Source: a virus. Taken from it: a stretch of DNA of 20,651 nt. Under the pieces are notes generated by a model. That model did not search any database, was not told where the DNA came from, and was given only the letters and a program-made list of their open reading frames with translations. The stretch's first letter is position 1. The number at the start of each line of letters is the position of its first letter. Positions 1,115 to 19,980 of the stretch are shown here, piece after piece. Location of the stretch: positions 1-20,651 of the IMG/VR virus record IMGVR_UViG_3300030012_001092; one strand, 5' to 3'. Made by a program: the position numbers and the translations under genes.

Positions 1115-1303
1115 TTAAGACATTATACTATTTATTATTGCACCCAAACTTGCTACTGCTATTAGCCAACCTGTTATCTCTGATCGTGTTGGCCTTTGAT
1201 TTATACGTTGATGAATTTCTGATAATTTATCGTCAAATTTTTTTTGATTTGCGATTACCTCTAATAAGAGTTCCTTTTGAGTAAATCCGTTCGGATTGTT
1301 CAT
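1115..1303 (-). CDS. Small one-helix membrane protein, holin-like or XhlA-like
   Basis: This 62-aa protein has a hydrophilic, probably coiled-coil N-terminal half (about residues 8-43, with KKFDDKLSEIHQRINQ). One predicted membrane helix follows at the C-terminus (about residues 45-61, WLIAVASLGAIINSIM). That layout resembles hemolysin XhlA-type or small holin-accessory proteins found next to tail fibre and lysis genes. The ATG at 1303 overlaps the stop of the upstream gene. No endolysin is visible in the window, so a lysis role is inferred from topology and position only. It could instead be a small membrane-anchored accessory protein. Confidence 0.75.
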   Translation of the reverse strand: MNNPNGFTQKELLLEVIANQKKFDDKLSEIHQRINQRPTRSEITGWLIAVASLGAIINSIMS

Positions 1304-1617
1304 TACTCTGGTTTAGGATTATCGTCTTTTATTTTTTTGATAGCTTTGTACCACTCACCCGTTTTATCGCCTTTGCCCGAAGTCATATCATGGTACAACA
1401 TATCTAGTTGTTCACCTAATGCAGGATAACTTTCTTGTCTTGCAGAAATATATCCGAATTGTTGTGCTTCCCATTTTGAGTTCCCTAAATCAATTTTTGC
1501 TTGATCGTAGTCAGCGTCAGTAAATTCAAGTCTTTCGTTGTTGACTTGCTTGTACATTGGCTTTGCAGCTTCTATTTCTGCGTCGGCTTGGGTTTGTAAT
1601 TCTTCTTTTGTTGCCAT
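1303..1617 (-). CDS. Small conserved phage protein with a YPALGEQLDMLYHD motif
   Basis: This 104-aa soluble, charged protein carries an ARQESYPALGEQLDMLYHD block (about residues 59-77) and a TGEWYKAIKKIKDDNPKP tail. The pattern 'YP.l.eQLDmlyhD...W..AI..iKd..PKP' recurs in many tailed phages, as a small protein beside tail fibre genes or as the C-terminus of fibre proteins. It is usually left unnamed or called tail-fibre-associated. The gene follows six fibre-like genes here, in keeping with that. Its biochemical role is not known to me; assembly chaperone or structural protein are both possible. Confidence 0.8.
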   Translation of the reverse strand: MATKEELQTQADAEIEAAKPMYKQVNNERLEFTDADYDQAKIDLGNSKWEAQQFGYISARQESYPALGEQLDMLYHDMTSGKGDKTGEWYKAIKKIKDDNPKPE

Positions 1618-1662: not shown

Positions 1663-2184
1663 TTATTTGACAAGTCCATACAACTTAAATGTTCCACTAG
1701 AAAAATTAGCTGAACTTTCCCAGAAGAATTCGAAACCATTTCTTGCACCAACAGCTTTCAGCGCACCACCACCCTGCCAACCAAATATTCTTTCTACAAA
1801 ATCAAACATTGTAATTTCCATTGTTATATGACTAAATTCACCTGTGTTATTAAAGTTAAAAGCGTAAATATTTCCATTACATGCTTCACCTGTACCTGTT
1901 CCTTGTCCAGATATATTTACGGGTAATGATGTTTGTCCTGTTGCACCCCTATTTACATGTGTACTATCAGCTCTAAGTTCATAAACTGCATATTCATAAT
2001 TAGCTGAACTATCAGCAGTTCCACTAGCTGTAAATCTAAAGTTTAAATCTTTATCATCTGTATCACAACGAACATTATTAAATTGTAAAAAGTAAACATC
2101 AAAACTTGTATCAGTAAAAGTAATATTTGCAGTAGCACCACTTGTTGCATTAACTTCACTTAAAAGAATAAGACTACTTGACAT
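1663..2184 (-). CDS. Fibre-like beta-rich protein, paralogue C2
   Basis: This 173-aa protein is one of six tandem paralogues. It has the shared core: FTDTSFDVYFLQFNNV, then a LNFRF strand, a YEYAVYELRA segment, an IYAFNF strand, and the closing SGTFKLYGLVK. The block GWQGGGALK followed by GFEFF and SGTF.LY matches only the 168-aa paralogue at 3348-3854, so I pair these two as type C. The closing 'LYG' strand is typical of small fibre or decoration proteins in uncultured marine phages. A role in receptor binding or decoration at the tail tip is inferred. Its ATG overlaps the stop of the upstream paralogue (TAATG). Confidence 0.82.
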   Translation of the reverse strand: MSSSLILLSEVNATSGATANITFTDTSFDVYFLQFNNVRCDTDDKDLNFRFTASGTADSSANYEYAVYELRADSTHVNRGATGQTSLPVNISGQGTGTGEACNGNIYAFNFNNTGEFSHITMEITMFDFVERIFGWQGGGALKAVGARNGFEFFWESSANFSSGTFKLYGLVK

Positions 2185-2708
2185 TATTTAACACCAAAGA
2201 CTGTAAGTTTTGTTCCGTCATCTATTGCGTTATCGGAATTAAATATTTGTAATCCTGTTATTGTTTCTGCTGATTTATGTACACCAACAAATTTAGCACC
2301 TCTAACTGCTCCAGAGCCGTTCATACTTACACCTTGTGCTAAACAGTAAGTAAATTTTGAACTACTTGCAGGATTGAATAAGTATAATATTCCTGTTGCG
2401 GGCTCTGGATCATTGTCATTTGTACAAAATGGCCTATCCCAATTTGTATCAGAAGTAGAATTTACTTCATTGTATGAAGCGTTACTTCTTAATTGTAATC
2501 TTGCGTAAGTATATTCACTATCTGAAATAACGCTATCGCTACTATCAATTAATCTAACATCAACTTGTCTTGCTAAATCTGAATAAGTATTTGCTAGACA
2601 ATGAACAACAAAAACTTCATAATTACTTGGAAAACAATCCGTAATAGAAAAAGTTGTAATTCTTCCAGAAGTGTTTTCAACTGTTTTTAAAAATTGTAAA
2701 CTAGACAT
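2184..2708 (-). CDS. Fibre-like beta-rich protein, paralogue B2
   Basis: This is 174 aa and belongs to the same six-member family. The N-terminus MSSLQFL matches MSNLRFL of the protein at 3854-4384. Both carry an FNP-x-SSS motif in the strand before the C-terminal third (here YLFNPASSSKFTY). I call these two type B. It ends LTVFGVK, the family's usual terminal strand. There is no signal peptide or membrane helix. Start and stop overlap the neighbours by TAATG, so translation is likely coupled through the array. It is probably a tail-tip or fibre component; the precise role cannot be read from sequence. Confidence 0.82.
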   Translation of the reverse strand: MSSLQFLKTVENTSGRITTFSITDCFPSNYEVFVVHCLANTYSDLARQVDVRLIDSSDSVISDSEYTYARLQLRSNASYNEVNSTSDTNWDRPFCTNDNDPEPATGILYLFNPASSSKFTYCLAQGVSMNGSGAVRGAKFVGVHKSAETITGLQIFNSDNAIDDGTKLTVFGVK

Positions 2709-3340
2709 TATAAACCTCTAATACCATACAAAGAAAATGTAGCTCTTGAAATGTTATCGCCACTTGTACCAAATTCAATTCCATTGACTTGATTAGCTAC
2801 CCTATAAACTGCCATTGTAAAATTAGAATTTTGGTTACTATCTTTATTTATATTTGTGTATTGAGTAGTTATATAAGTAAATTTATTACTATCCCCTGCA
2901 TTGTAAACATAACAATAACCATGTGCAGTTTCATTAGTAGCTGATCCTGTACTGTAAACTTGCCACATCTTAGTATCACCTGCTGATTTTAATTCTGATC
3001 CTGTTGAGGCTGTGTTTCTCTGCATGGCATATTCGTAATTACTACCTGTGTCAGTTGTACCTGCGTTTTTAAATCTTATCCTTATGTGTCTATTATCAAC
3101 AGTTGGAACGTAATCGCTCATTGTGATAAAGTGAACTTTGTATTCTGTTTCTTTGATATTATCAAAAGATAAAGTTGAAACATCACTTGCAGTTTGTGTT
3201 TGTATGTGTTCAAGTTGTCCAAAAGTACTGTATTTATTTTCTTGATCTAGCTCAATAATATCTTGTGGTGTAAAAATACCTTTATTATCAAAAAAAGCCT
3301 GTGTAACTTCTTTACCTATGTAGCCATATTCTTTACTCAT
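2708..3340 (-). CDS. Fibre-like beta-rich protein with N-terminal anchor, paralogue A2
   Basis: This is 210 aa. Residues 1-55 form an extension absent from types B and C: MSKEYGYIGKE, KGIFTPQDIIELDQ, then GQLEHIQTQTASDVSTL. It matches the extension of the protein at 4381-5010 (GYIG, KGI-T-Q, LE-I--QT-S-VS). The rest is the shared beta-rich core, with GSATNE, YCYVYN and the closing FSLYGIRG. The extension may attach the protein to the tail tip or to a trimer partner, with B and C types assembling on it; that is inference. A GAGG Shine-Dalgarno precedes the ATG. Confidence 0.83.
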   Translation of the reverse strand: MSKEYGYIGKEVTQAFFDNKGIFTPQDIIELDQENKYSTFGQLEHIQTQTASDVSTLSFDNIKETEYKVHFITMSDYVPTVDNRHIRIRFKNAGTTDTGSNYEYAMQRNTASTGSELKSAGDTKMWQVYSTGSATNETAHGYCYVYNAGDSNKFTYITTQYTNINKDSNQNSNFTMAVYRVANQVNGIEFGTSGDNISRATFSLYGIRGL

Positions 3341-3347
3341 CTATACC

Positions 3348-3854
3348 TCATATTATTTTGTAAAGTGTAAAAGTTCCACTTTCAATATTTCCTGTTCCTG
3401 CAAAAAAATGTAATCCGTCATGTGCCTCTGCAACTTTATAAGCTGCACCACCCTGCCTACCCTGTAATTGTCCTGAACTATTAATAAAAGCTACTTCATT
3501 TGATATAAAAGAAAATTCATCTGATTTATAAAAATTATATAGATACAAAATTAAATTTGATTGTTCATTTGCAGCACTTCCAATGGCATTTGCAAGATAA
3601 AACGCAGCTTGTGTATTACTATCATTTGAAAAAGAAGCACTAGCATTTAGTGTTTTATTAGCTCTTTGATAATTGCTTGTTGTTTGTTCTGTTCCACTTA
3701 CAGTTACCTTTGCTCGTAAAGTTGTTCCGTCACTAACAGATACAAAATTATTTACAGTTACCATATAAACACAATCCTCTGTATCTATACCTGTTAAAGT
3801 AACACTTGCTACTTCACTTGTAACTGTACTTGTTGCTACTTGTAATAATCCCAT
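3348..3854 (-). CDS. Fibre-like beta-rich protein, paralogue C1
   Basis: This 168-aa family member lacks the A-type extension. Its GRQGGAAYK, then GLHFF and SGTFTLY, pair it with the protein at 1663-2184. It also shares LANAIGSAANE with the A-type protein at 4381-5010 (IANAIGNATNE), so the cassette members may have exchanged segments. It ends LYKII rather than LYG. The start overlaps the upstream stop as TAATG. It is probably a structural component of the adsorption apparatus. Confidence 0.82.
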   Translation of the reverse strand: MGLLQVATSTVTSEVASVTLTGIDTEDCVYMVTVNNFVSVSDGTTLRAKVTVSGTEQTTSNYQRANKTLNASASFSNDSNTQAAFYLANAIGSAANEQSNLILYLYNFYKSDEFSFISNEVAFINSSGQLQGRQGGAAYKVAEAHDGLHFFAGTGNIESGTFTLYKII

Positions 3855-4384
3855 TATGTGTCAACCCTTAATCCATAAGTCCTTATTTTTGAACTATCAA
3901 ATGGTCTAGTTTGACTAATTGCATGTAAACGAAACCCTGTAACGCTTGACAACTCTGTTAAAACTCCAATACCTTTCCCCCCGCCTTTACCACTTCCAAA
4001 AGAAAAACTATCCTGCCAAATTACAAAAGTATAACTTGAACTTGAAAAAGGATTAAAAATATAACTTACAATACTTGTTCCCTCTGGCTCTTGGTCGGCT
4101 TGTCCAAATTTTTGTATATATACATCATTATCATCTCTTTCATCTAAATATGTTGTATATGCCCTTATTCCTCTGTTTGCCCAATCATATTCACTTGCAG
4201 TTATAATACTTCCACTAGAATTTATAAACCTCATAGCAACATCTGTTGAGGCTGTTCCATTTGTAACCATTTGAGGTACAACAATTTTATAAATATCAAA
4301 ATCACTTGTAAAAACATCTGTAACATCAACAGTAGATACAGAACTACCAACAGTTGTTTCGTTTAAAAATCTAAGATTACTCAT
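3854..4384 (-). CDS. Fibre-like beta-rich protein, paralogue B1
   Basis: This is 176 aa. MSNLRFL at the N-terminus and FNPFSSSSYTF in the core pair it with the protein at 2184-2708. A Gly-rich insert, FGSGKGGGKGIGV, lies near residue 135, and the C-terminal strand is IRTYGLR. The ATG at 4384 overlaps the upstream stop by four nucleotides (ATGA), which favours translational coupling. It is inferred to be a tail-tip, decoration or receptor-binding protein from its family and position downstream of the tail genes. Confidence 0.82.
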   Translation of the reverse strand: MSNLRFLNETTVGSSVSTVDVTDVFTSDFDIYKIVVPQMVTNGTASTDVAMRFINSSGSIITASEYDWANRGIRAYTTYLDERDDNDVYIQKFGQADQEPEGTSIVSYIFNPFSSSSYTFVIWQDSFSFGSGKGGGKGIGVLTELSSVTGFRLHAISQTRPFDSSKIRTYGLRVDT

Positions 4385-5010
4385 TGTTTCACACCAAAAA
4401 GTTTTATTGTGCCTGTAATATTAGAACTGTCATCAAGTAAAACTTGTATTGCGTTTATAGTTTCTGCAACAGGATAAACACCAATACCATAATCAAAATT
4501 AAAAACAGTTGTATTGTTAACTAAAACTGAATGCGTAGTTGTAAAACTAAATTTTGATGAATTATTTAGACTATATAAATAACAATATGAGTGTCCTTTT
4601 TCATTTGTCGCATTACCTATTGCGTTTGCTATTGTGATTGCATCAGCAGATGTTGATTTTAATTGATTAAAACTTCCACTAGCATTACCTTGGTCTCTGG
4701 CACTATGGTAGCCACTTGCCTCATAACTGCTACCACTATCATTAGAAAATCTTATTTGTATTTCTTCATTATCATCAGAGGTAGAAATATTTAATAACTG
4801 TAAAAAGTGTACATCAAACTTTGCACCTTTTATATTTGTAAAATTTACAGAGCTTACTCCCGATACAGTTTGTTCCTCAATAAGTTCTAAGCTACCACCT
4901 AGAAAACCTTGTCGTTCTAAATCAAAGCTCTCTTGTGTAGTTAATATGCCTTTATTCTTAACCTTTTGCTTGACACTTGTAGATGTGTCGCCAATATAAC
5001 CAAATGACAT
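4381..5010 (-). CDS. Fibre-like beta-rich protein with N-terminal anchor, paralogue A1
   Basis: This 209-aa protein is the first of the six paralogues in the direction of transcription. The N-terminal extension MSFGYIGDT, NKGILTTQESFDLE, then GGSLELIEEQTVSGVSS resembles that of the A2 protein. The core has FDVHFLQLLNI, IANAIGNATNE, CYLYS and the terminal IKLFGVKQ. The 'SLELIEEQT.S...V.FTNI' pattern recurs in small fibre proteins of uncultured marine phages, from memory of that group. It likely begins the adsorption cassette. Confidence 0.84.
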   Translation of the reverse strand: MSFGYIGDTSTSVKQKVKNKGILTTQESFDLERQGFLGGSLELIEEQTVSGVSSVNFTNIKGAKFDVHFLQLLNISTSDDNEEIQIRFSNDSGSSYEASGYHSARDQGNASGSFNQLKSTSADAITIANAIGNATNEKGHSYCYLYSLNNSSKFSFTTTHSVLVNNTTVFNFDYGIGVYPVAETINAIQVLLDDSSNITGTIKLFGVKQ

Positions 5011-5017
5011 AGAACAC

Positions 5018-5347
5018 CTATGTTTGTTTCAAATAGTTAATTGTAAAATCTATGCTTGAAGCTGCTGAACACAATCCTTGTATTTTATCACCTGTTGTCA
5101 AAACTACCTTTGTTTCCCAAACAAGCGTTGTACCTGCGGGTACAGTTACATCATTTAACAAATGTGGTGTAGTTGATCCACCAGATTTAACTATTTCAAT
5201 ATCAATGGTAACGTCTTGACTGCTTGAATTAACATTAGCAAAAGACATACCAATAATTGTTTCAGTTGTACTTGAACCTACTGCGTCAAGTAAGTCGGCG
5301 TTGCTAGTTCCTAATGTTCCTACAACACCCTCTAATACGTCGGCCAA
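5018..5347 (-). CDS. Small tail-tip or minor tail protein
   Basis: This 109-aa protein is all beta in appearance. It contains the pattern 'VPAGTTLVWETKVVL-x3-D-x-I' followed by SAASSIDFTINYL. Phages of Actinobacteria and marine phages commonly carry such a protein near the tail fibres ('P.G..l......kivL..gD.I...as....vd..i...'). It probably folds as a compact beta-sandwich that decorates the tail tip or helps fibre attachment. The gene lies between the 158-aa fibre protein and the six-paralogue array, spaced by 7-14 nt. No enzymatic motif is visible. Confidence 0.75.
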   Translation of the reverse strand: MADVLEGVVGTLGTSNADLLDAVGSSTTETIIGMSFANVNSSSQDVTIDIEIVKSGGSTTPHLLNDVTVPAGTTLVWETKVVLTTGDKIQGLCSAASSIDFTINYLKQT

Positions 5348-5361
5348 TTTACTTTCCTTTC

Positions 5362-5838
5362 CTAGCTAAGTGCTAAAACTAAACCTAATGTAACACCACC
5401 CGCTAAATTAGCTATATCCTGTGCTGTTGTTCTTTTTAAATTATTACTATCGTCTGCGTCCCCGATCAAAACAATATCCGATCCTGCGACTGTTGCGGAA
5501 GTTGCTTGACTTGGTGCTATAACTAATGTTGATGAAAAAGCACCAGAAGTTGCAGCTGCACCACCAGATAAACCAGAAGTGCTACTTGTTGTGATCGTAA
5601 CACCTGTAATATCACCCTCACCAATAAAATCAACAAAAGATGATCCGTCGTAGAATTGTAATGTATTACTATCTTTTAAAAAGACAAATTGCCCTTCTTC
5701 TCTTTTACTAGATGTTATACCTGCGTCCCTAGCGGTACTGTCAGCGTACACCATAATTACTTGCATAAGGTGATTATTTACGTTAGCCGCAGTTAATACT
5801 TCACCTGTTGAAAATTCTTTATATCCAGATAATGCCAT
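5362..5838 (-). CDS. Tail fibre or tail-tip protein with a GYKEFSTGEVLTAANVN head
   Basis: This is 158 aa. The N-terminus GYKEFSTGEVLTAANVNNHL and the downstream EEGQFVFLKDSNTLQFYDGSSFV match a very common phage fibre motif ('F..G.vLtAadVN.yL...' and 'eG....l.Dt..l..YdG..W'). The second half is low complexity, rich in Ser, Thr, Ala and Gly, ending with a possibly fibrous or trimerising segment. It acts outside the cell as part of the adsorption apparatus. It follows the tail-tip gene and precedes the small fibre-related proteins, as usual in actinophages. Confidence 0.85.
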   Translation of the reverse strand: MALSGYKEFSTGEVLTAANVNNHLMQVIMVYADSTARDAGITSSKREEGQFVFLKDSNTLQFYDGSSFVDFIGEGDITGVTITTSSTSGLSGGAAATSGAFSSTLVIAPSQATSATVAGSDIVLIGDADDSNNLKRTTAQDIANLAGGVTLGLVLALS

Positions 5839-5883: not shown

Positions 5884-7113
5884 TTAGTAACCCAACTTAT
5901 CTGTATCTAAAATACCAAATAACGTATTATCTAAACGTAAAAATGCTTGTACGTCTGCATTTGATAATTTGTATGAAACTACAAAAATATCTGGTGTAAT
6001 ATTGTAAGAAATACTGTCAATAATTTCATTAGCTGTTATTTGACTTGGACTACCACCACCAGGCGGTGTAAGCTCTATTTTTATAATATCTGTAACATCA
6101 CGATCTAATATTGTATTTTGATTAGATGTACTTTGTTCAGTTATATCTACAACTAAATTGTCAAACCTTATTAAAGCGTCTTTAAATTTACCAAGTAAAA
6201 AGTTTGCTGCGTCTAAAACTTCTGTATCTGAATTATTAAATAGACCTGTTCTATTAAGTGTACGTATTAAATATTTACCTTGACTTCCTGCGTCCTCTGC
6301 TGTTTGTGTTGTTCCGTTTAATCTTTGCAAAGATATAATGTTAAATATTTCGTTATCGTCGTTTATATAATCAACTTTTAAATATGGTATATCTGATCCG
6401 TCGTCTGAAAACGTAGCTGCAACAGAACTTGGGAACGTTGTATGCCTTGATTTAAAAGTAAGATCACCAGACTTTGACATAAACAATGATCCATTTTCTG
6501 ATCTCTCTACCGTTTGTAATACCGACAATGTATTTTCTGTTATACCACTTAATGACTGCATTGTACTTATTCCTGTTTCAATATCTCTATTTGCACCAAA
6601 TTTAACTTGTGTATTATCTAATATTGACGTAATTAGGTTGCCACTTGTTGCAGAAGAAAAACTTTGATTTATAAGTTTTGTATTTGCTATCTTCATAAAT
6701 GCGTCAGAAGCAACAAAATCTGCAAAAGAGTTGTTGCCGTCTGGATAAGATAAATTAATATCAGTTACAAAACCTACAAATAAATCTTTGTAAGTTGATC
6801 CACCGTCTGTTGTTGCGTCCACATGAATTTCTATCAATGGTTCTATACCAGGCGAAAATGCACTAGATGTGTTTGTATTTTCGTATTTACGTTCGTTATT
6901 AAGTAATCTTACGCTACATGACCCTGTAAAAAAGCTGTCTGTATCTCTTGATCTACCTCTATTTATACTTACAGATTGTACGTCAGAAGTTACATCACTA
7001 AGTGTTGTAGCACCACCAAGTTTGCCTGTATCTAAAACACCACGTATTAAATCATCAAGCGTAAATGTATCTGGTGTAAATCCAATTCTCACTCTAAGTG
7101 TTGGTGCTGCCAT
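5884..7113 (-). CDS. Minor tail protein, probable baseplate hub or tail-tip protein
   Basis: This 409-aa protein is encoded directly after the tape measure, where siphophages keep distal tail and tail-tip proteins. It is beta-rich, starting MAAPTLRVRIGF, with an RGRSRDTDSFFTGSCSVRLLN segment near residue 55 that resembles the tail-associated hub proteins of marine and actinobacterial phages. Related short segments occur at both ends: GVLDTGKLGG near residue 27 and GILDTDKLGY at the C-terminus. The C-terminal 'LDNTLFGILDTDKLGY' ending is typical of this group from memory. It probably closes the tail tube. An AAAGGA Shine-Dalgarno serves the next gene downstream, not this one. Confidence 0.8.
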   Translation of the reverse strand: MAAPTLRVRIGFTPDTFTLDDLIRGVLDTGKLGGATTLSDVTSDVQSVSINRGRSRDTDSFFTGSCSVRLLNNERKYENTNTSSAFSPGIEPLIEIHVDATTDGGSTYKDLFVGFVTDINLSYPDGNNSFADFVASDAFMKIANTKLINQSFSSATSGNLITSILDNTQVKFGANRDIETGISTMQSLSGITENTLSVLQTVERSENGSLFMSKSGDLTFKSRHTTFPSSVAATFSDDGSDIPYLKVDYINDDNEIFNIISLQRLNGTTQTAEDAGSQGKYLIRTLNRTGLFNNSDTEVLDAANFLLGKFKDALIRFDNLVVDITEQSTSNQNTILDRDVTDIIKIELTPPGGGSPSQITANEIIDSISYNITPDIFVVSYKLSNADVQAFLRLDNTLFGILDTDKLGY

Positions 7114-7119
7114 TAGAAA

Positions 7120-9480
7120 CTAAATTGCCCTATTAATTATTCTGTTTATATCGCCCTCTGTTCTGTTAAATTCATTTATTCCACCAACAACAACATTTTT
7201 CATTTCTTCTGGATTGGTTACAGTACCGTGAAAATTAATTGTAACTTCCCCAAATCTAGCTGCACCACCCATTGCTTCAGCTCTTGCCAATCCACGTGCG
7301 GCATTAGCTGTTCTTGATAAATCACGTGCATTTGCTGCAATTAAATCTTCAACTACTTTTGGTGGTTTTTTTCCTGTTGTATCATCTACAAGTTCATCTA
7401 TTGTATCGTCATCAAATGGTGTGTCATCACTATCTGGTGTACCACCACCACCACCAGAAGTGTCAGCACCAAATAAACCACTTAAATTACTCATTGCGTC
7501 TTTTGCTAAATCACGAATATGTTGTAACGTTTGTTCTAATTTGCCGTTGCCTAATTTCGCCAATGCTTCGTTATAACTTTCTTGGGCAGAAGCTAATTCT
7601 AGTAAAACATCAACATTGCTTGTATGTGATTTATTAAGATCATCTTGTTTTTCTTTTACTTTCTCTGTTAAATCTATTTCCCTAAGACGTAATTTTTCTT
7701 TTTCTTCTAATAATCTATTTATTTTTTCTTGGACACGTTCTGCTTCTCTTTGTGCTTCTGATAAGTTTCTTTCTGCTTCTTCTACATTTCTATCAATACC
7801 AACACTTTGATCTCTTAATTCAGACAATCTTTCAACTGCTAAAGCAAGTTCAATAGTTTTAATTTCTGATCCGTCTTGTTCTTCTGATAATCGTTGTACA
7901 GCTTCTTCTTGACGTAATATTGCCAAACGTTCTTCATTAGTTACTTCTTTTGCTTTTATCTTTGCTTTTTCAACATCTTCTTCTGCTTGTTTGATTTTTT
8001 CATTAGCTTTAACAAGTTCATCATTTGCACCAAGTAAATCTTCGTCAATATCTAAAAGTTCTTTATTTGCGTCAATTAATTCTTCTTGTGCTTTTTTAAG
8101 TGCTTTTTCAGCTTCAATTTGTCTTTCTTGAATACTTAGTATTTTTTGTCTAGCCGATCTAAGTTGTTGTAATGCAGGGACAGTTTCTTTCATTAATGCT
8201 TCTGCTTCTTTCCTTGCTACTTCAGTAGCTTCTCTTTTGCTCTCAATCATACTTTCAAGGGTGTCTTGTTCTTTTTCTATTTCTGTTCTTGCGTCTACGT
8301 GTGCAGGTGTATATTGATCTTTGTAAACTCTTGAATAATATTCTGTCATTGCGATACCACGTTGTATTAAATTGTTTTTTAATTTTTCTTTATCTGCTTG
8401 TTCTTTTGTAGCTTTACTTGTTCCGTAAAGACTTGTAGTTACATCTTTATTTGTAAGACCGTATTTTTCTAAAAATGTGTTACCTTGATCTATTGCGTCA
8501 TTGTTATCATTAAATACACCAACGCCAAATTCAATAATAGATACAACAATATCAAATACTTTTGCTAATGCTTTAAATCCGTTTTCTAACATTGGCAGTA
8601 ACACAGGTGCTAATACTTGAAATAAATCAACCACCCTTTGTATAATCGGTGCAAGTTCTTGCATAATTGGTGCAAAACCCTCTGCTAAATCTTCTACTAA
8701 TTCACTTATTATTGGTAGTAATTCAGAAGCAACAGGTAATAATTCTTTACCTAAATTTGCTTGTACTTCTTTTAATTCAGCAGATACTTTACGACTTACG
8801 TTTGCAAAACTCTCTTGTGTTCTATTGAGATCGCCCTGTTGGACTTTTGTTTTTTGCAAAAGTAATTCATACGTTGCTAATGCTTTTTCTTGTTTGGTAA
8901 GTTCTTTTGCACTTGTCTTACCTGTCATTATGAACGCTTGTTGCTGTACGTCAGCTTCAAGTATTGCTATACCAAATGTTTTAAGACTTTCACGTTCACC
9001 TAAAAGTGCTTTTGTAAATGCTTGTAAAACAGGTTCAGCACCACCCTGGACGTTACTAAATGACGCAACATCACCTGCTAAAGTCGCTAGTTTTTGTGAT
9101 AAGTCTGCCGATCCCTCTGCTGTAAAGTTAATACCTTGTAGAACTGCACCAGAAGTAGCAAGTAATTGTTTTAGTTCAAAGTCTGCTAAACCCGCCTTAT
9201 TTGCAAAATCCTCAACAAACTCACCTGCACTTTTAGCTGCTGTGCCAAACGTTTCATCAAAGGCCGCCCCCGCTTCATTAGCGTCAGACGCTACTTGTAC
9301 TGCTTGTACACCTGCGGCGACAGCAGCTGCACCAACAACTGCAAAACCTGTGGCAGCTGCCGATCCAACTCTTGTTACACCTTTTGCAAATTTACCAACT
9401 GCTGTATCTGATCTACGAATAGCTTTTAATAAACTTGTTTCATCACCAAGAAATACATACCGTAATTTTTTATCTGCCAT
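7120..9480 (-). CDS. Tail tape measure protein
   Basis: At 786 aa this is the longest protein in the window, placed right after the chaperone G/GT and gp10-like genes, as expected. Residues 40-65 hold an Ala/Gly/Val-rich hydrophobic segment (AAATGFAVVGAAAVAAG), and residues 245-325 a second hydrophobic region. A long charged coiled coil spans about 400-640. A Gly-rich acidic linker (SGGGGGTPDSDD) lies near 675, followed by a C-terminal head with GEVTINFHGTVTNPEEM. The protein sets tail length and is thought to move with DNA during injection. With the usual 1.5 angstrom per residue the tail would be near 118 nm; this is an estimate. No lytic domain is recognised. Confidence 0.94.
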   Translation of the reverse strand: MADKKLRYVFLGDETSLLKAIRRSDTAVGKFAKGVTRVGSAAATGFAVVGAAAVAAGVQAVQVASDANEAGAAFDETFGTAAKSAGEFVEDFANKAGLADFELKQLLATSGAVLQGINFTAEGSADLSQKLATLAGDVASFSNVQGGAEPVLQAFTKALLGERESLKTFGIAILEADVQQQAFIMTGKTSAKELTKQEKALATYELLLQKTKVQQGDLNRTQESFANVSRKVSAELKEVQANLGKELLPVASELLPIISELVEDLAEGFAPIMQELAPIIQRVVDLFQVLAPVLLPMLENGFKALAKVFDIVVSIIEFGVGVFNDNNDAIDQGNTFLEKYGLTNKDVTTSLYGTSKATKEQADKEKLKNNLIQRGIAMTEYYSRVYKDQYTPAHVDARTEIEKEQDTLESMIESKREATEVARKEAEALMKETVPALQQLRSARQKILSIQERQIEAEKALKKAQEELIDANKELLDIDEDLLGANDELVKANEKIKQAEEDVEKAKIKAKEVTNEERLAILRQEEAVQRLSEEQDGSEIKTIELALAVERLSELRDQSVGIDRNVEEAERNLSEAQREAERVQEKINRLLEEKEKLRLREIDLTEKVKEKQDDLNKSHTSNVDVLLELASAQESYNEALAKLGNGKLEQTLQHIRDLAKDAMSNLSGLFGADTSGGGGGTPDSDDTPFDDDTIDELVDDTTGKKPPKVVEDLIAANARDLSRTANAARGLARAEAMGGAARFGEVTINFHGTVTNPEEMKNVVVGGINEFNRTEGDINRIINRAI

Positions 9481-10136
9481 TATGCTGCCTTTGGTACTCT
9501 TGCTAGACCTGTTGTACCGCTACTAGATATTCGTATTGGTATATCAACAACTTTATTCATTTCTAATGTTTTTTCTATTGCACGATTTACTTTGTTCAAA
9601 TAATCTTTTTGTATCTCTGGTAATGCGTTTTGTATAGTTACACCAACAACATAACCACCTTTTTGCGTATCAAATGCTTTTGCACCTACATATTTTCTAT
9701 AAAGGGGTCTTGCCCCTGGTCTTGAACTTGGTAAACGACCAATAAGGGTTTGTGAAACTGCTCTATTGTTTTTAAGTTTTTTAGATCGTGTTGGAACATT
9801 AATATATTTACGACCAAACTCTAAAGATAATACAGCGTCATTTTTTTGTCCTTGAATTTCAACACTAGCTTGATTTTGTCTTGCTCTGCCTTTTATACCA
9901 CGCACGGCTAAATCCCGCCTATGAACAGGGCGACCTAATACGTTTTGTGTACGCCCTCTTTTTACTGCGTCATTTGCAACTTCTTTAGAAATTTCAATAT
10001 TGACACGTCTAATTGCTTTACCAATTTCTGGTTCAACTTTTTTCCAATTACGTACAAATTCATTAAGACCTGCAACGCCAACTGCACCACTTATAGCAAG
10101 TTGCCGTCCACGTCCTGTTTGTTCAATCGTCGCCAT
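9480..10136 (-). CDS. HK97 gp10-like or minor tail protein
   Basis: This 218-aa protein is basic. The N-terminal part, GLNEFVRNWKKVEPEIGKAIRR followed by VNIEISKEVANDA, resembles HK97 gp10-type head-tail or tail-completion proteins, where a 'GL.el...l.....'-type helix leads into a basic domain. A motif SSRPGARPLYRKY sits near 140, close to the 'R.G..P' seen in some tail completion proteins. It lies between chaperone GT and the tape measure rather than before the tail tube genes, which is unusual for gp10. The GT stop codon overlaps its start region (10123-10136), so it may be translated by reinitiation after GT. Family assignment is tentative. Confidence 0.6.
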   Translation of the reverse strand: MATIEQTGRGRQLAISGAVGVAGLNEFVRNWKKVEPEIGKAIRRVNIEISKEVANDAVKRGRTQNVLGRPVHRRDLAVRGIKGRARQNQASVEIQGQKNDAVLSLEFGRKYINVPTRSKKLKNNRAVSQTLIGRLPSSRPGARPLYRKYVGAKAFDTQKGGYVVGVTIQNALPEIQKDYLNKVNRAIEKTLEMNKVVDIPIRISSSGTTGLARVPKAA

Positions 10137-10527: not shown

Positions 10528-10935
10528 TTATGATGTTGCTCTTGTAATTGTACCAGAAGTAGGAAATGCCACACTCATAGTTGCTAATTCACCCACACCG
10601 TTTGCAACAGGTAAGTGTTGATTTACCAACACATTACCAGAATACGCCGGGTTTGTAGCACTTGTTGATCCTGCGTCTGCTTTAACAATAAATGCAGTCG
10701 TAGTACCTAACAATGGAAACAATGTTGCGTCTACTTCAGAACTTGCAAAATCTTGATGAAACTCTATTGATAGTGTTCCGTCTTTTAAACCACCTGTACG
10801 ACTTTGAAATGTGTCGCCCATGGCGGTTGTTACGATTTCGTCAGCTGTAATATCAAGAGTAACTGAACTAACATGATCTGATAAATCAACGCTGTTTAAA
10901 GTTACACTTGCATTATTTAATACAAATTTCGCCAA
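10528..10935 (-). CDS. Second tail tube paralogue, TTG start
   Basis: This is 135 aa. The N-terminus MAKFVLNNASV, with DLSDHVSSVTLDITADE and SRTGGLKDGTLSIEF, aligns with the larger tube protein at 11214-11939 (MAKFVFNDGKV, DLSSNITSVNLDISADE, SRLGGLKDSTLNM). The start is TTG at 10935, preceded by AAGGA; the paralogue alignment fixes this start. It is a shorter single-domain tube protein. It may be the main tube subunit, a tail completion protein, or a minor tube variant. It lies just upstream of the G/GT chaperone gene, the usual position of the major tail protein, so the roles of the two paralogues are uncertain. Confidence 0.83.
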   Translation of the reverse strand: MAKFVLNNASVTLNSVDLSDHVSSVTLDITADEIVTTAMGDTFQSRTGGLKDGTLSIEFHQDFASSEVDATLFPLLGTTTAFIVKADAGSTSATNPAYSGNVLVNQHLPVANGVGELATMSVAFPTSGTITRATS

Positions 10936-11213: not shown

Positions 11214-11939
11214 CTATTCTATGCCGATTGTTGCATGTATGCCGAAAGCAGGGTTTGTACCTGTGATTGTGTAATTCAAACGCCAATACTGATCTGTGAT
11301 TGCACCCGATACACTTTGGAAAGCAGAACCGATTGCTGTTATGCCTGTAAATGTAATACGGTCAGTTGGACTTGTAAAACTTGAATTATCGTCTGATTGT
11401 AATTTAAAAGTAATTGTTGGTGTTGATGTACCACTTACACTATAACAATGGATTGCTGCATAACATTTTTCTGTTGCTGCAACCGCCCCTAATTGTGTTC
11501 CTGTGCTGTTACCAGAAGTTGTTAGCGATCCGTCTAATTGGATCGTACCACGTACAACAACATCACTTGATTGTGATTTAGAAACTGTAAATGGTGTTAT
11601 TTCACCTATTGATCCAAGTATGTTGTAGCTAAATAAAGTTGATTTCATAAAGTAAGCAATGTTACCTACCCCTGCGTCTGGTACTGTTGTAACAACTAAT
11701 TCATTGCCCACAGAAGCACCTAGTAGTGCGTCTGGCTTATTTGCCCCTGCTTCAAAAAATCCGTCCATGTTAAGTGTGCTATCTTTCAATCCGCCAAGCC
11801 TTGAACGAAAGCCACCACTATTTATTGTTGTTGCGTCTAATTCGTCTGCGGATATATCAAGGTTTACACTTGTAATGTTTGAAGATAGATCATATCCACC
11901 TGCAAAAACTTTACCGTCGTTAAATACAAACTTTGCCAT
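11214..11939 (-). CDS. Major tail (tube) protein with extra C-terminal domain
   Basis: This is 241 aa. Residues 1-115 form the tube domain: MAKFVFNDGKV, then DLSSNITSVNLDISADE, SRLGGLKDSTLNM. Residues about 115-241 add a beta-rich domain, including AAIHCYSVSG and a YWRLNYTITG strand. Such C-terminal domains decorate the tube exterior in some siphophages and can help adhesion. It lies upstream of a 135-aa paralogue that lacks the extra domain. As two tube-type genes are present, the larger may be a decorated tube subunit or a minor component. Confidence 0.85.
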   Translation of the reverse strand: MAKFVFNDGKVFAGGYDLSSNITSVNLDISADELDATTINSGGFRSRLGGLKDSTLNMDGFFEAGANKPDALLGASVGNELVVTTVPDAGVGNIAYFMKSTLFSYNILGSIGEITPFTVSKSQSSDVVVRGTIQLDGSLTTSGNSTGTQLGAVAATEKCYAAIHCYSVSGTSTPTITFKLQSDDNSSFTSPTDRITFTGITAIGSAFQSVSGAITDQYWRLNYTITGTNPAFGIHATIGIE

Positions 11940-13478: not shown

Positions 13479-14807
13479 AGTAGGTGTTACTAGACCTGTA
13501 CCTTGTATCTTTGTCATACCCGCTGGGTATCTTCCAGAAGCAAAGGCAGAGTAACCATACACAACCATTTTTGTTGTTAATGATCCTGCGTTGGTTTCTT
13601 CAAATTTAAGTTGGAAGATATTATCTTCAAACAAAATGTGATCGTCCACTTTCAATACGTAAATCTGATCTTGGTCGTTTCCGCCACCGTCAGTTGTAGT
13701 AATGTTTGCGTCTGTAATAACAGGTAGTCCAAGTATGTTTCCAACTACTGCTCCGTAAGCAGCTGCGTCCCCGATACCAACTGCGTTGTCTGGGTTATTT
13801 CCCGCAGGTGTGATTAACGGTCTTGAATTTCCGTCTACTCCTGCTGTAAAGAAACCCCAACGTCTTGGGTGCATAAGGATTGCAGTTGCAGGTGCAAAAC
13901 GATTTGCATTGATCTGCTGTACTGCGTCAGCTATTTTAGGGAACGCTTCACCAACAGTTGGTGTTGCGTCTGTGTAAGTAACCGTATTTTGTCCGCTTAC
14001 GTTTCTAATTCCCAAAGGTTGTCCAGATGATCCCGAACCCTCAAACATTAAGCTATCTAATTTACCGTAATATGCAGCAATTAAGTCTTGGAAAATAATA
14101 TTTTCAAGACTGAAACCTGGTTGTCCCCCTCTTTCAAGTGCTTGTCTTGATACGTCTTGCTGTCCTGCAATAGTATCAACATTGACTGTCAATAAGGTGT
14201 CGTCCATATTTGTTTCTTGTACTGCTGAATTTTGGCTTGATTGCTCTGCTGCTTCAGAACCCGTTGTAATTCTAGAAACTTCTACTTTCATACCGTATGC
14301 AGGTAATGGTTTTTTAGGAACAGCGTTATATAATGCCGAACCAGCTCTTGCGATTGGTGCGTACTCATCTAAAAGATATTGAGGTACGACTAATCCTGCA
14401 AAAGCACCTGTGCCTACATCTCTAGCTTCAAATTCTTGGTGTCTGTTAAGTCTTTCTTGTGCTGCACCGTTACCAGAACGTGATTGCCAAGCGTCAGATA
14501 TAAATGAGTGTTCGCCACCCTTTCTATATATATCTGGCTCATTGACTTCAACGATTGCTTCTTGTTCAACAACTTCTTCGTCCTCAACGCCAAGTTCTTC
14601 TCTGCTTTCTTTAACTGCTTTTAGAGTTTCAGCAGCTTCTCTTGCGTCGGTAATTTTTTCTTCTAAATCTTTGATTTCAACGTGTAAATCTTTTGATCTT
14701 GCAAGTTTGCCGTCAAATTCTTCACCCTCTGTCATCTCATCTAGTTCTTCTAAAAGACCGTCAAGTTCTGCTACTTTACTATCTCTAGCTTCAATTAACT
14801 TTTTCAT
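13473..14807 (-). CDS. Major capsid protein (HK97 fold)
   Basis: This is 444 aa, with the layout of an HK97-type precursor. Residues 1-90 form a charged coiled-coil scaffold (delta) domain, e.g. SKVAELDGLLEELDEM and VEIKDLEEKITDAREA. An acidic linker precedes the mature shell beginning near residue 125-140 (GAFAGLVVPQYLLDE). The shell part has AIARAG-type and QQDVSRQALERG helices, LIAAYYGKLDSLMFEG, and GQPLGIRN. The protease encoded upstream is expected to remove the delta domain. A 90-nt gap with repeats precedes the gene and two hairpins follow it, suggesting separate control of this abundant product. Confidence 0.95.
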   Translation of the reverse strand: MKKLIEARDSKVAELDGLLEELDEMTEGEEFDGKLARSKDLHVEIKDLEEKITDAREAAETLKAVKESREELGVEDEEVVEQEAIVEVNEPDIYRKGGEHSFISDAWQSRSGNGAAQERLNRHQEFEARDVGTGAFAGLVVPQYLLDEYAPIARAGSALYNAVPKKPLPAYGMKVEVSRITTGSEAAEQSSQNSAVQETNMDDTLLTVNVDTIAGQQDVSRQALERGGQPGFSLENIIFQDLIAAYYGKLDSLMFEGSGSSGQPLGIRNVSGQNTVTYTDATPTVGEAFPKIADAVQQINANRFAPATAILMHPRRWGFFTAGVDGNSRPLITPAGNNPDNAVGIGDAAAYGAVVGNILGLPVITDANITTTDGGGNDQDQIYVLKVDDHILFEDNIFQLKFEETNAGSLTTKMVVYGYSAFASGRYPAGMTKIQGTGLVTPTF

Positions 14808-14846
14808 AGTATGTATTTCCTTGTACTTTTTTCTTATACTTCTGCG

Positions 14847-14871
14847 TAAGGTGTGATAGGTAAGTGTGATA
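14847..14871. repeat. Two direct repeats TAAG(G)TGTGATA before the capsid gene
   Basis: TAAGGTGTGATA (14847-14858) and TAAGTGTGATA (14861-14871) are near-identical copies, about 14 bp apart start to start, in the 90-nt gap between the protease and capsid genes. A TATAAG on the minus strand (14833-14838) lies beside them but no good -35 is correctly spaced. They could be a regulatory site for capsid expression or chance. I see no ORF in this gap. Confidence 0.3.
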
Positions 14872-14897
14872 CACGGCTTTTACCACGGCGTTACGTC

Positions 14898-16787
14898 TTA
14901 GCGAATACCGTCCCGTTCTAACTTTAATTTTAAAAGCTCAACTTGTGCGTTACTTCGCTTTTTATCAACACCGTCGTTATCTTCAACTTTGTTAATAAAA
15001 TCTTCTAAAACTTCTGCTGCCTGTTCACCAGACCTAGCTTCAACAAGTGATCTATGTAAATCTTCAATATCAAGACCACGTAATTTTGCCCCTGCCCACG
15101 GATTTGCAGGATATGTTACAACGCTTACGTCATACAATCTTGCTTCCGATACTGTTCTTTCGTCCCCGTTTTGGTTGAAGTCATCACGCATTGCTGCAAA
15201 CGCAAATGACATTTCGTTTAGATCGCCACGCTTCATTGCACTTGCGACTTCTGCAACGGTTGGATTGCTAGGATCAAGCTCTGCCCTAACAAACAAACCG
15301 TACTCATCTTCTTCTAAATTTAAAGTACCGCTTGATGTTCTAGCTAGTGGTATACCGTCGTGATTAACTAAAAATCTTACGTCGTCTTGTTCTTGTAATG
15401 TTTTCTTAAATGCACCTGGTTTGATAGTTTCGTTGTATTGTCCTCTACTATCTCTTACACCATAAGGTTTATCAAAGACAGAAGCATAACCTGTAAATAA
15501 TAATGTATCGCTGTCTTGATCTTGACGTTCTTCTACTGCTGCAAAAGTAAAACTTCTATTTTCTGTAAGTCTATCCATTTCTTTTAGATTAGTGTTGTTT
15601 TTTTGTAGTTCTATCGTTTGTGATATAGCAACAACCCTATCAAACACTTCTATGTGTTGATCTTGTGATTTTTTTTCTTTTGCAGAATATCTAGGGTGTT
15701 CTTTTGGCAATAAATCATTATCTGTAATGTATTTTGCATTTTTTGGTCTATCGTTTTTTAACAAATAACTAAAAGCACGTAGTCTAGCTAAACCCCAAGC
15801 GTTTCTTGAAACTCCAGGGCGGTGTGATGTACTATATGCCCCAAAACCTCTACGTACAACACTTTTTGCTGTTCCCATACCTAAACGTCGCCATGAAGCC
15901 ATATTTGATACTTCTTCATTATGTTCATCAACAACAGTCTTTATTGACTTTGTAGTTGCTTCTGAAAACTTTATACCACCTGCTTTACCTTTTGCACTTC
16001 CGGGTTTGTTTTTCTTAGAACCTTTTATTTGGTCTTTTTTTGGTGCAGGTGTAGAACTTTCACTTTGTCTAGGTTCTAGCTCACCCTCATTAATAAGTTG
16101 TGCAACTTTCCTTTCTGCCCAATCAGCTGCTTGTAGTGGATCAGTCCAAGGATTAGAACCCCACAATAAAAAAGCGATATCTGATCCTCGCCAAGTATCT
16201 GGATCATTAGGATTAGATTTTTCTCTATCAAGATCAGATAAATGTCTTTTATGCCAAGGTGCTATTTTTCTAATTTTTGCTATGCTAAGTTGTTCACCTC
16301 TTGCCATAATCCTTGCTTGTCTTACAGTTTCGTCTACTAAACCGTCCCCTGCTTTGTTTAAATTATCCAAACCACGTTGTGCGTTTTCTTGCATAAATTT
16401 AGGCGGTTTTCTATCTACTGCCCTTTGTTCGCTGTTATAACTTACTAATGTTGTATCATCTTCGTCTTTGTGTTTCATACCTGTTATTTCTTCATAATCT
16501 GACATTTTGTCGCAGGGCATAAAATACGTCTTGCCGTTTATTTCGTGTGTATGTGATCCAACACAACCTATTTCTTTTGCTTTTTCTTCAGCTTCCTCTT
16601 GTGTTTCGTAAATATCTTGATCTGGGTTTGCTTGTCTTTTGTATTCTGTTTCAGCAATATTTAGTGCTGTTATCTGATCTTTTGCTTTTTCTTCAGTTTC
16701 ATGGCAACCCATAATTGTTTTGTCATCATCTTTAATTACTGCAAAACCGTTGCAATCTTCAGCGTCTGTACTTATTGAATAAGGCAT
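14898..16787 (-). CDS. Head maturation protease (S78) fused to N-terminal accessory domains
   Basis: This 629-aa protein is much longer than usual S78 proheads (about 180-250 aa). Residues 1-50 (MPYSISTDAEDCNGFAVIKD with MGCHETEEKAKDQI) match a short domain often fused to actinophage proteases. Residues about 74-105 have HTHEINGKTYFMPC. Two related segments follow: about 135-235, with RGSDIAFLLWGS, and about 270-370, with RRGFGAYSTSHRPGVSRNAW and a DLLPKEHPRYS block. The C-terminal S78 protease covers about 428-580: FTGYASVFDK, RFLVNHDGIPLA with His476, and GDLNEMSFAF with catalytic Ser527. It processes capsid and scaffold in the prohead. The overlap with portal (TAATG) suggests coupling. An internal start near MDRLTENRSFTF (residue 404) could yield protease alone. 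Confidence 0.92.
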   Translation of the reverse strand: MPYSISTDAEDCNGFAVIKDDDKTIMGCHETEEKAKDQITALNIAETEYKRQANPDQDIYETQEEAEEKAKEIGCVGSHTHEINGKTYFMPCDKMSDYEEITGMKHKDEDDTTLVSYNSEQRAVDRKPPKFMQENAQRGLDNLNKAGDGLVDETVRQARIMARGEQLSIAKIRKIAPWHKRHLSDLDREKSNPNDPDTWRGSDIAFLLWGSNPWTDPLQAADWAERKVAQLINEGELEPRQSESSTPAPKKDQIKGSKKNKPGSAKGKAGGIKFSEATTKSIKTVVDEHNEEVSNMASWRRLGMGTAKSVVRRGFGAYSTSHRPGVSRNAWGLARLRAFSYLLKNDRPKNAKYITDNDLLPKEHPRYSAKEKKSQDQHIEVFDRVVAISQTIELQKNNTNLKEMDRLTENRSFTFAAVEERQDQDSDTLLFTGYASVFDKPYGVRDSRGQYNETIKPGAFKKTLQEQDDVRFLVNHDGIPLARTSSGTLNLEEDEYGLFVRAELDPSNPTVAEVASAMKRGDLNEMSFAFAAMRDDFNQNGDERTVSEARLYDVSVVTYPANPWAGAKLRGLDIEDLHRSLVEARSGEQAAEVLEDFINKVEDNDGVDKKRSNAQVELLKLKLERDGIR

Positions 16788-19580: not shown

Positions 19581-19675
19581 TATTCTTCTTCATCTTTTAC
19601 TTCTTCAAATTCTGTATCAATCCAAGAAATATGTACTTTTGATCCGTCGTTAAGATAAATCCATTTTTCGGACAT
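19580..19675 (-). CDS. 31-aa acidic micro-protein
   Basis: An ATG at 19675 overlaps the SET-gene stop by one nucleotide (TAATG), and its TAA at 19580-19582 overlaps the terminase ATG in the same way. The product begins MSEKWIYLNDGSKVHISWID and ends in an acidic EEVKDEEE tail. Perfect packing with both neighbours argues for translation, if only to carry ribosomes on to the terminase gene. No family is recognised. Confidence 0.6.
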   Translation of the reverse strand: MSEKWIYLNDGSKVHISWIDTEFEEVKDEEE

Positions 19676-19980
19676 TATTCTTCTTCTGGGTTGTAAGTGT
19701 TATATTTTACTGTAAGTTCTTCACCTGGCATTATTTGTTCAGTTGTAAACAAAAAGTACAAATGCGTAAACGCTTGATCTATAACAATCATACAGTTTGG
19801 CTTATCACTATGATTTACAAAACCACCTACGGGTGTTCTGATCCATATTGACGGATCATTTAACATAACGTGTGAAATGCCTATATTTGTATTTTCTTTA
19901 ATTATTTGTTTAGCAAACAAGCCTTTGCCGTCAATCTCACTATCTTGTATATCTATAAAGTCTGGTAATGGTTTATACAT
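19675..19980 (-). CDS. Minimal SET-domain protein, putative lysine methyltransferase
   Basis: This 101-aa protein fits a minimal SET domain. It has DGKGLFAKQIIKENTNI near residue 17-33 (GxG-type SAM loop), FVNHSDKPNC near 54-63 (the NHS..PN motif that binds SAM), and PGEELTVKYNTYN near the end (the GEEL...Y motif). SET enzymes transfer methyl from S-adenosylmethionine to a lysine. Here the post-SET cysteines are absent and the length is short, so the target may be a phage protein rather than a chromatin protein. It lies between the small and large terminase subunits with TAATG overlaps on both sides, a position that suggests a packaging-related target, which is inferred. A non-catalytic role is possible. 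Confidence 0.85.
   Translation of the reverse strand: MYKPLPDFIDIQDSEIDGKGLFAKQIIKENTNIGISHVMLNDPSIWIRTPVGGFVNHSDKPNCMIVIDQAFTHLYFLFTTEQIMPGEELTVKYNTYNPEEE

Follow-up and report, generated by a model that had tools for sequence, protein, structure and literature searches.

Three-gene cassettes in the tail region of an Actinomarina-associated phage as candidate heterotrimeric receptor-binding heads

Phage fibre heads are classically homotrimers, and tandem paralogous genes are common at phage fibre loci. The virophage DSLV2 departs from the homotrimeric plan, its tail being a heterotrimer encoded by three genes, as determined by co-purification (PMC12724248). Here we analyse a six-gene array in IMG/VR virus record IMGVR_UViG_3300030012_001092, a 20.65-kb stretch of tailed-phage DNA (20,651 nucleotides; hereafter the window), in which homologous genes of three classes follow one another in the order A1-B1-C1-A2-B2-C2. 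As in the DSLV2 tail (PMC12724248), three consecutive homologous tail genes of similar length combine a position-specific phylogeny with a variable, putatively receptor-binding region. The DSLV2 proteins, however, resemble the tip of T4 gp37 with a PF07484 collar, whereas those of the window are predicted jelly rolls without a Pfam match, and the window triads belong to tailed phages, come in one or two cassettes and have a single anchored chain. We consider it rather likely that the products of each A-B-C triad assemble into a single heterotrimeric receptor-binding tail head, which docks by way of A.

The phage itself has a near-identical described relative. The window capsid protein has an identical counterpart on contig CACMQN010000011.1 of the Candidatus Actinomarina single-cell genome AG-919-G14, and the phage on that contig has the same six-gene layout and 95.9% DNA identity to the window over 15.8 kb; through it the window phage is associated with Candidatus Actinomarina. 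A search for prophage copies in bacterial genomes returned none except this single contig. The AG-919-G14 phage is described in PMC7771536, where a sentence on its variable part assigns that part to the removal of sialic acid; the text there on this phage does not mention a triad organisation.

Six paralogues in three classes

The window encodes a terminase, portal, HK97-type protease, capsid protein, tail terminator, two tail tube proteins and a tape measure. Past the tape measure, the minus strand carries in order a 409-residue tail protein, p158, p109, the six-gene array and d104, so that the array lies in the tail region, upstream of lysis-type genes (placed from relatives). The six genes are as follows.

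A1, 4381-5010, minus strand: 209 amino acids (aa); anchor subunit of cassette 1, with a docking segment at the N-terminus followed by a jelly-roll body (open reading frame, AlphaFold2 (AF2) model, A clade)
B1, 3854-4384, minus strand: 176 aa; second subunit of cassette 1, no anchor, strand from residue 4 (open reading frame, AF2 model, B clade)
C1, 3348-3854, minus strand: 168 aa; third subunit of cassette 1, no anchor (open reading frame, C clade)
A2, 2708-3340, minus strand: 210 aa; anchor subunit of cassette 2 (open reading frame, A clade, block common to locus L167)
B2, 2184-2708, minus strand: 174 aa; second subunit of cassette 2 (open reading frame, B clade)
C2, 1663-2184, minus strand: 173 aa; third subunit of cassette 2 (open reading frame, C clade)

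The six reading frames overlap or abut, as in translationally coupled genes, and across loci neighbouring genes overlap by 4 or 1 nucleotides (nt) or abut (medians -4, -1 and 0). Their paralogy is established: body identities are 20-36%, alignment scores stand 5.5-22 standard deviations over shuffles, and profile-profile comparison joins A to B (5.8e-29) and C to B (3.3e-35). The best body partners occupy like positions (A1-A2 36%, B1-B2 32%, C1-C2 32%). Coordinates, homology scores and like-position partners thus bear out the first-pass annotation, which had read the array as six paralogues in a repeated A-B-C order. The B signatures that it listed, MS.L.FL and FNP.SSS, and the C signatures QGG and SGTF.LY are real and recur across relatives as class features. 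Its N-terminal extension is indeed confined to A1 and A2, but these proteins are about 38-40 residues longer than B and C, not 55. An exchange between A1 and C1, suggested there from a shared block, was rejected: the block (NAIGNATNE / NAIGSAANEQ) is a widespread family motif, found in 26 of 99 A and 36 of 97 C proteins, and at the DNA level it does not qualify as an exchange tract, A1 and C1 being linked by no long near-identical direct repeat.

Orthology within three classes is likewise established, across dozens of marine phages. In a FastTree phylogeny of 152 members the A proteins form one clade, as do B and C save for two very divergent sequences. The Shimodaira-Hasegawa-like approximate likelihood ratio test in IQ-TREE gave 99% for the A clade and 98.8% for the B clade; a constrained C clade was not rejected and fitted better than the free search, and in a smaller-set tree A, B and C were each a single clade at 98-99%. 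Had the window genes instead grouped by cassette, as in the tree that the first-pass annotation set against cassette duplication, A1, B1 and C1 would have clustered; forcing that clade cost 223 log units and was rejected by the approximately unbiased test (p-AU 5.7e-45).

The A1 AF2 model (predicted local distance difference test, pLDDT, 87) has a confident all-beta body, mostly above 93, preceded by two low-confidence helices (residues 9-20 and 25-33); the B1 model (pLDDT 94) has a body of this kind from residue 4 onwards. The predicted fold is a jelly roll of about 170 aa. No convincing solved-structure relative was found in the PDB by sequence or fold: the best fold matches reached an expect value (E) of about 3e-3 with template-modelling (TM) scores below 0.45, a TNF-like lectin appearing weakly. 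Predicted viral structures in BFVD matched strongly (TM about 0.6-0.76); some are named tail fibres, and some are fused to Stf-repeat, Gly-rich or collagen segments. The cassette proteins thus appear to share a predicted fold and a fibre context with these tail-fibre heads. Many of the latter, unlike the window head, which would be split over three paralogues, are parts of longer single proteins, presumably homotrimers. The cassette proteins had no significant Pfam match, PF07484 and sialidase included, and T4 gp37 was not among the listed fold matches. Profile phrog_14820, annotated as of unknown function, matched A1 (6.1e-7), A2 (1.8e-5), C2 (4.1e-5) and 10 of 47 A proteins, with no match in B1, C1 or B2.

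Cassette counts and anchors

Relatives were collected with the capsid protein, the tail protein, A1, A2, a one-cassette anchor pattern and a second A1 as queries, which yielded about 300 loci; flank proteins and single genes were used, the six-gene alignment being too diverse for a collection scan. Members were detected with class profiles (E below 1e-5), arrays were kept only with DNA on both sides, and arrays sharing fewer than 60% of 5-mers were counted as distinct. The 68 distinct complete loci comprise 37 ABC and 31 ABCABC arrays, a count from searches seeded with members among contigs that often end within arrays; one-cassette phages, which the first-pass annotation had proposed to look for, therefore exist beside the two-cassette ones. 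In all 68 loci d104 follows 9-63 nt downstream of the array, so no extra family member is hidden there.

Four arrays beyond the 68 were also inspected. L285, apparently ABCBC, is ABCABC, its second triad being complete with an A2 too diverged for the profile, and L170 is a diverged ABC array. L296 (6001-8525) reads ACABC on a contig with broken frames, possibly a sequencing artefact, and is the sole candidate for a number that is not a multiple of three. The single C-like gene of L157 and L158 belongs to a separate single-chain architecture. In L157 this family member (14680-15336) stands among Gly-rich genes, and Gly-rich fibre-like genes fill the slot of the triads in both L153 (11626-12890) and L157 (11962-14201). 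No complete A or AB array and no clearly intact array of four or five genes was seen among those inspected. The module also occurs on viruses without a match to the window capsid protein, such as L299.

The duplication of a three-gene unit, as first annotated, holds in that the unit is real and occurs in one or two copies. The two cassettes form an ancient pair that 31 distinct loci have in common and whose termini are specific to position. They are now passed on as independent modules; no recent duplication in the window phage is therefore involved.

The number of cassettes goes with the type of anchor and with the genes just upstream, listed here with the other flanking features.

A1 docking anchor, 4897-5010, minus strand: about residues 1-38; about 95% DNA identity with relatives as far as 4867-4877; position signature
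A2 docking anchor, 3221-3340, minus strand: about residues 1-40; sequence type unlike A1; conserved DNA island 3216-3347
p109, 5018-5347, minus strand: small putative adaptor of 109 aa; TTG start as listed, an internal ATG giving 76 aa
p158, 5362-5838, minus strand: shaft- or adaptor-like protein just upstream, C-terminus ...LGLVLALS
409-aa conserved tail protein, 5884-7113, minus strand: upstream flank marker (phrog_5313), 99% identical to L086 and L087 though the fibre genes differ
d104, 1303-1617, minus strand: directly downstream of every cassette array; phrog_1787/9114 (E 4e-15), annotated as of unknown function

The N-terminal anchor is present only in A; B and C open at the first beta strand, without a docking domain. 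All 31 two-cassette loci have a helical-type anchor and a p109-like gene, and p158, where visible, ends in GLVLALS or similar. In the 37 one-cassette loci the anchor is without exception MPLGA[AS]RFGL and p109 is absent, and the visible p158 ends like LLNALQNFS; an apparent p109 in two of them proved to be truncated p158. Homologues of p109 in cultured marine phages are annotated as virion structural proteins. In the cultured Pelagibacter phage HTVC019P the annotated tail fibre has the C-terminal end ...AIALG and a p109 homologue (E 1e-4) comes next, an arrangement consistent with p158 being a fibre shaft or adaptor. A role for d104 as an assembly factor for the heads is possible.

Variation and the case for a split head

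The array combines hypervariable bodies with conserved flanks and termini. Between close relatives, identity is about 95% in the flanks but about 36-53% in the six bodies. Against the AG-919-G14 contig, DNA identity is about 95.5% from the tail protein into A1, up to 4867; past that point it drops to about 50%, interrupted by short conserved islands where genes meet, until it rises again at about 1668. The break likewise falls inside A1 for L086, at 4877, and for L087, slightly later, at about 4788. The opposite pattern is seen with L167, in which only cassette 2 (3347-1687) is conserved (84% DNA identity) and the background has diverged. One of the islands is the following.

Conserved DNA island at the B1/C1 junction, 3741-3889, minus strand: 81-87% identity to L178, L086 and L087, against about 50% on either side

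Residues specific to cassette position lie in the anchor of A and, for B and C, within about 10 residues of the start and 5-9 of the end. Bodies and termini can part company: the B and C bodies of the single-cassette locus L110 match B1 and C1 of L142 at 66% and 75%, while the termini agree at only 17/40% and 42/38%. The L142 array (6598-9601) is a mosaic, with B1 and C1 bodies like L110, A2 like L094 and B2 like L103, a natural case of chain shuffling. Within a cassette the bodies nevertheless co-diverge. In a set of 28 two-cassette loci, the body distances of genes from one cassette are correlated (r 0.39-0.56, p=0.002 in every case, the permutation floor), whereas those of genes from different cassettes are not (r -0.01 to 0.10; 0.05 for the adjacent C1-A2 pair); a first run with 13 loci gave the same picture, and in one-cassette loci the within-cassette correlation is 0.52-0.59. 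Class-specific residues of complementary chemistry stand at equivalent columns (A153 K/S/E, A160 H/Q/E and A174 F/K/Q) and would fit the needs of an asymmetric interface.

These features suggest the following model. Each triad would supply the tail tip with one head for host recognition, in which three homologous jelly-roll chains form a heterotrimer, probably in 1:1:1 stoichiometry. Since only A carries a docking segment, B and C would depend on assembly with A for their place in the virion. The position-specific first and last strands would serve as an address code by which A1 pairs with B1 and C1 and not with set 2, and the exposed bodies would vary and be swapped among phages, changing the receptor recognised. 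In the window phage there would be two of these heads, each with its own type of anchor, mounted on a shaft made of p158 and p109. The heterotrimer, to which genetic and sequence evidence points, is the weakest step of the model; the stoichiometry, docking site and receptor binding are what we infer alongside it. A receptor-binding fibre is also suggested by the pairing of a conserved N-terminal attachment part (the A1 anchor) with a hypervariable distal part, and by the other fibre-type genes that hold the slot in L153 and L157. Of the adsorption or decoration hetero-oligomer envisaged in the first-pass annotation, adsorption is retained as the best reading, while decoration is disfavoured by the tail/lysis location and by the content of this slot.

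Several observations weigh against a heterotrimer. Some bodies have been exchanged gene by gene, A2 and B2 of L142 coming from separate sources. At most termini four-fold site identity is mostly 60-80% (44-54% at some C-termini), compared with about 50% in bodies; because four-fold sites are also more alike at most termini, linkage and recombination at conserved junction DNA could lie behind part of the co-divergence and terminal conservation. L170 has one cassette and yet carries p109, a GLVLALG p158 end and an anchor other than MPLGAARFGL, which breaks a strict rule tying p109 to two cassettes; since L170 pairs one cassette with p109, the rule is restated as p109 following anchor type, not cassette number. 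HTVC019P, finally, has three consecutive members (35604-37439, AGE60622-AGE60624) downstream of its tail fibre and p109 homologue, as in the window, but with other genes between the p109 homologue and the triad. Unlike those of the window, all three carry N-terminal extensions and are 49-57% mutually identical, for which reason they could be separate homotrimers; the triad is perhaps an independent triplication.

This last case fits an alternative that we regard as unlikely, in which A, B and C are each homotrimers, A sitting on the shaft and the B and C trimers in series or on A, with at most six specificities per virion. The classical homotrimeric state of fibre heads and the related single-chain L157 protein fit it too, but B and C lack any docking segment, the counts are locked to multiples of three, and independent homotrimers would need neither position-specific termini nor cassette-wise co-divergence. 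A hetero-oligomer that differs in stoichiometry or shape from a simple trimer, for instance a pseudo-hexameric ring or a collar encircling the tail tip, would draw on the same genetic evidence for an obligate triad, and siphophage tail tips do have three- and six-fold platforms; we hold this to be improbable, because the other relatives by predicted fold belong to fibre-like proteins, suggesting trimeric heads.

Removal of sialic acid from the host surface by the variable proteins is highly improbable. The sentence in PMC7771536 concerns the variable part of the same phage lineage, and 16 of 51 A proteins contain an Asp-box-like SNDGGSSF; however, the box is never present in more than one copy and in no B or C protein, there is no sialidase Pfam match, and the predicted fold is a jelly roll of about 170 aa with no beta-propeller. 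Motif and fold both speak against a sialidase, which was rejected. In the comparison of window and AG-919-G14 phage the variable part consists of the six genes; their lack of sialidase hallmarks calls the published reading into question, with the reservation that the passage may have meant other genes. Capsid decoration is equally hard to credit: the proteins are small and beta-rich, and phage T1 has heterotrimeric decoration proteins (PMC11945409), but the genes follow the tail genes and precede d104, far from the capsid gene, relatives hold Gly-rich fibre-like genes in their place, and the module occurs on viruses without a match to the window capsid protein. Least credible of all is serial duplication into spare adhesins with neither obligate triad nor complex, which the frequency of tandem paralogues at fibre loci might suggest and which the A, B and C clades and the counts of exactly three or six contradict.

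If the heterotrimeric head is real, its obligate three-gene make-up would let receptor sites be asymmetric and chains be mixed, and would give a virion room for two independent specificities. We put forward more tentatively, as an idea that falls a little short of probable, that marine tailed phages have split a normally homotrimeric fibre head into three obligate, address-coded chains, in one or two mutually orthogonal copies, giving a combinatorial and swappable receptor-recognition code. Such a code would be comparable in logic to the heterotrimeric heads of C1q, and the literature searched held no earlier description of it for tailed phages. The module spans several virus backbones and reaches a phage of one of the smallest free-living marine bacteria; cultured HTVC019P on Pelagibacter makes the triad idea testable. 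For genes now called hypothetical, ABC or ABCABC ahead of d104 provides an annotation rule.

Further genes of the phage and its relatives

Two neighbouring minus-strand genes, 10528-10935 (135 aa) and 11214-11939 (241 aa), encode paralogues that both match PHROG major tail protein; the longer product carries an extra C-terminal domain, and the tail tube is possibly mixed. Adjoining the terminase, 19675-19980 (minus strand) encodes a 101-aa SET-domain protein (PF00856, E 5e-11), an unusual phage gene. A minus-strand gene at 1-1035, which runs off the window end, has a signal-like start, long threonine runs and acidic segments, and its product, perhaps a cell-surface or lysis-stage protein, resembles one encoded at L170 6131-7999. 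The Actinomarina phage contig L171 encodes a 215-aa WhiB-domain protein (2927-3574); in its account of an Actinomarina phage, PMC7771536 reports a WhiB protein fused to an ADP-ribosyltransferase-like domain.

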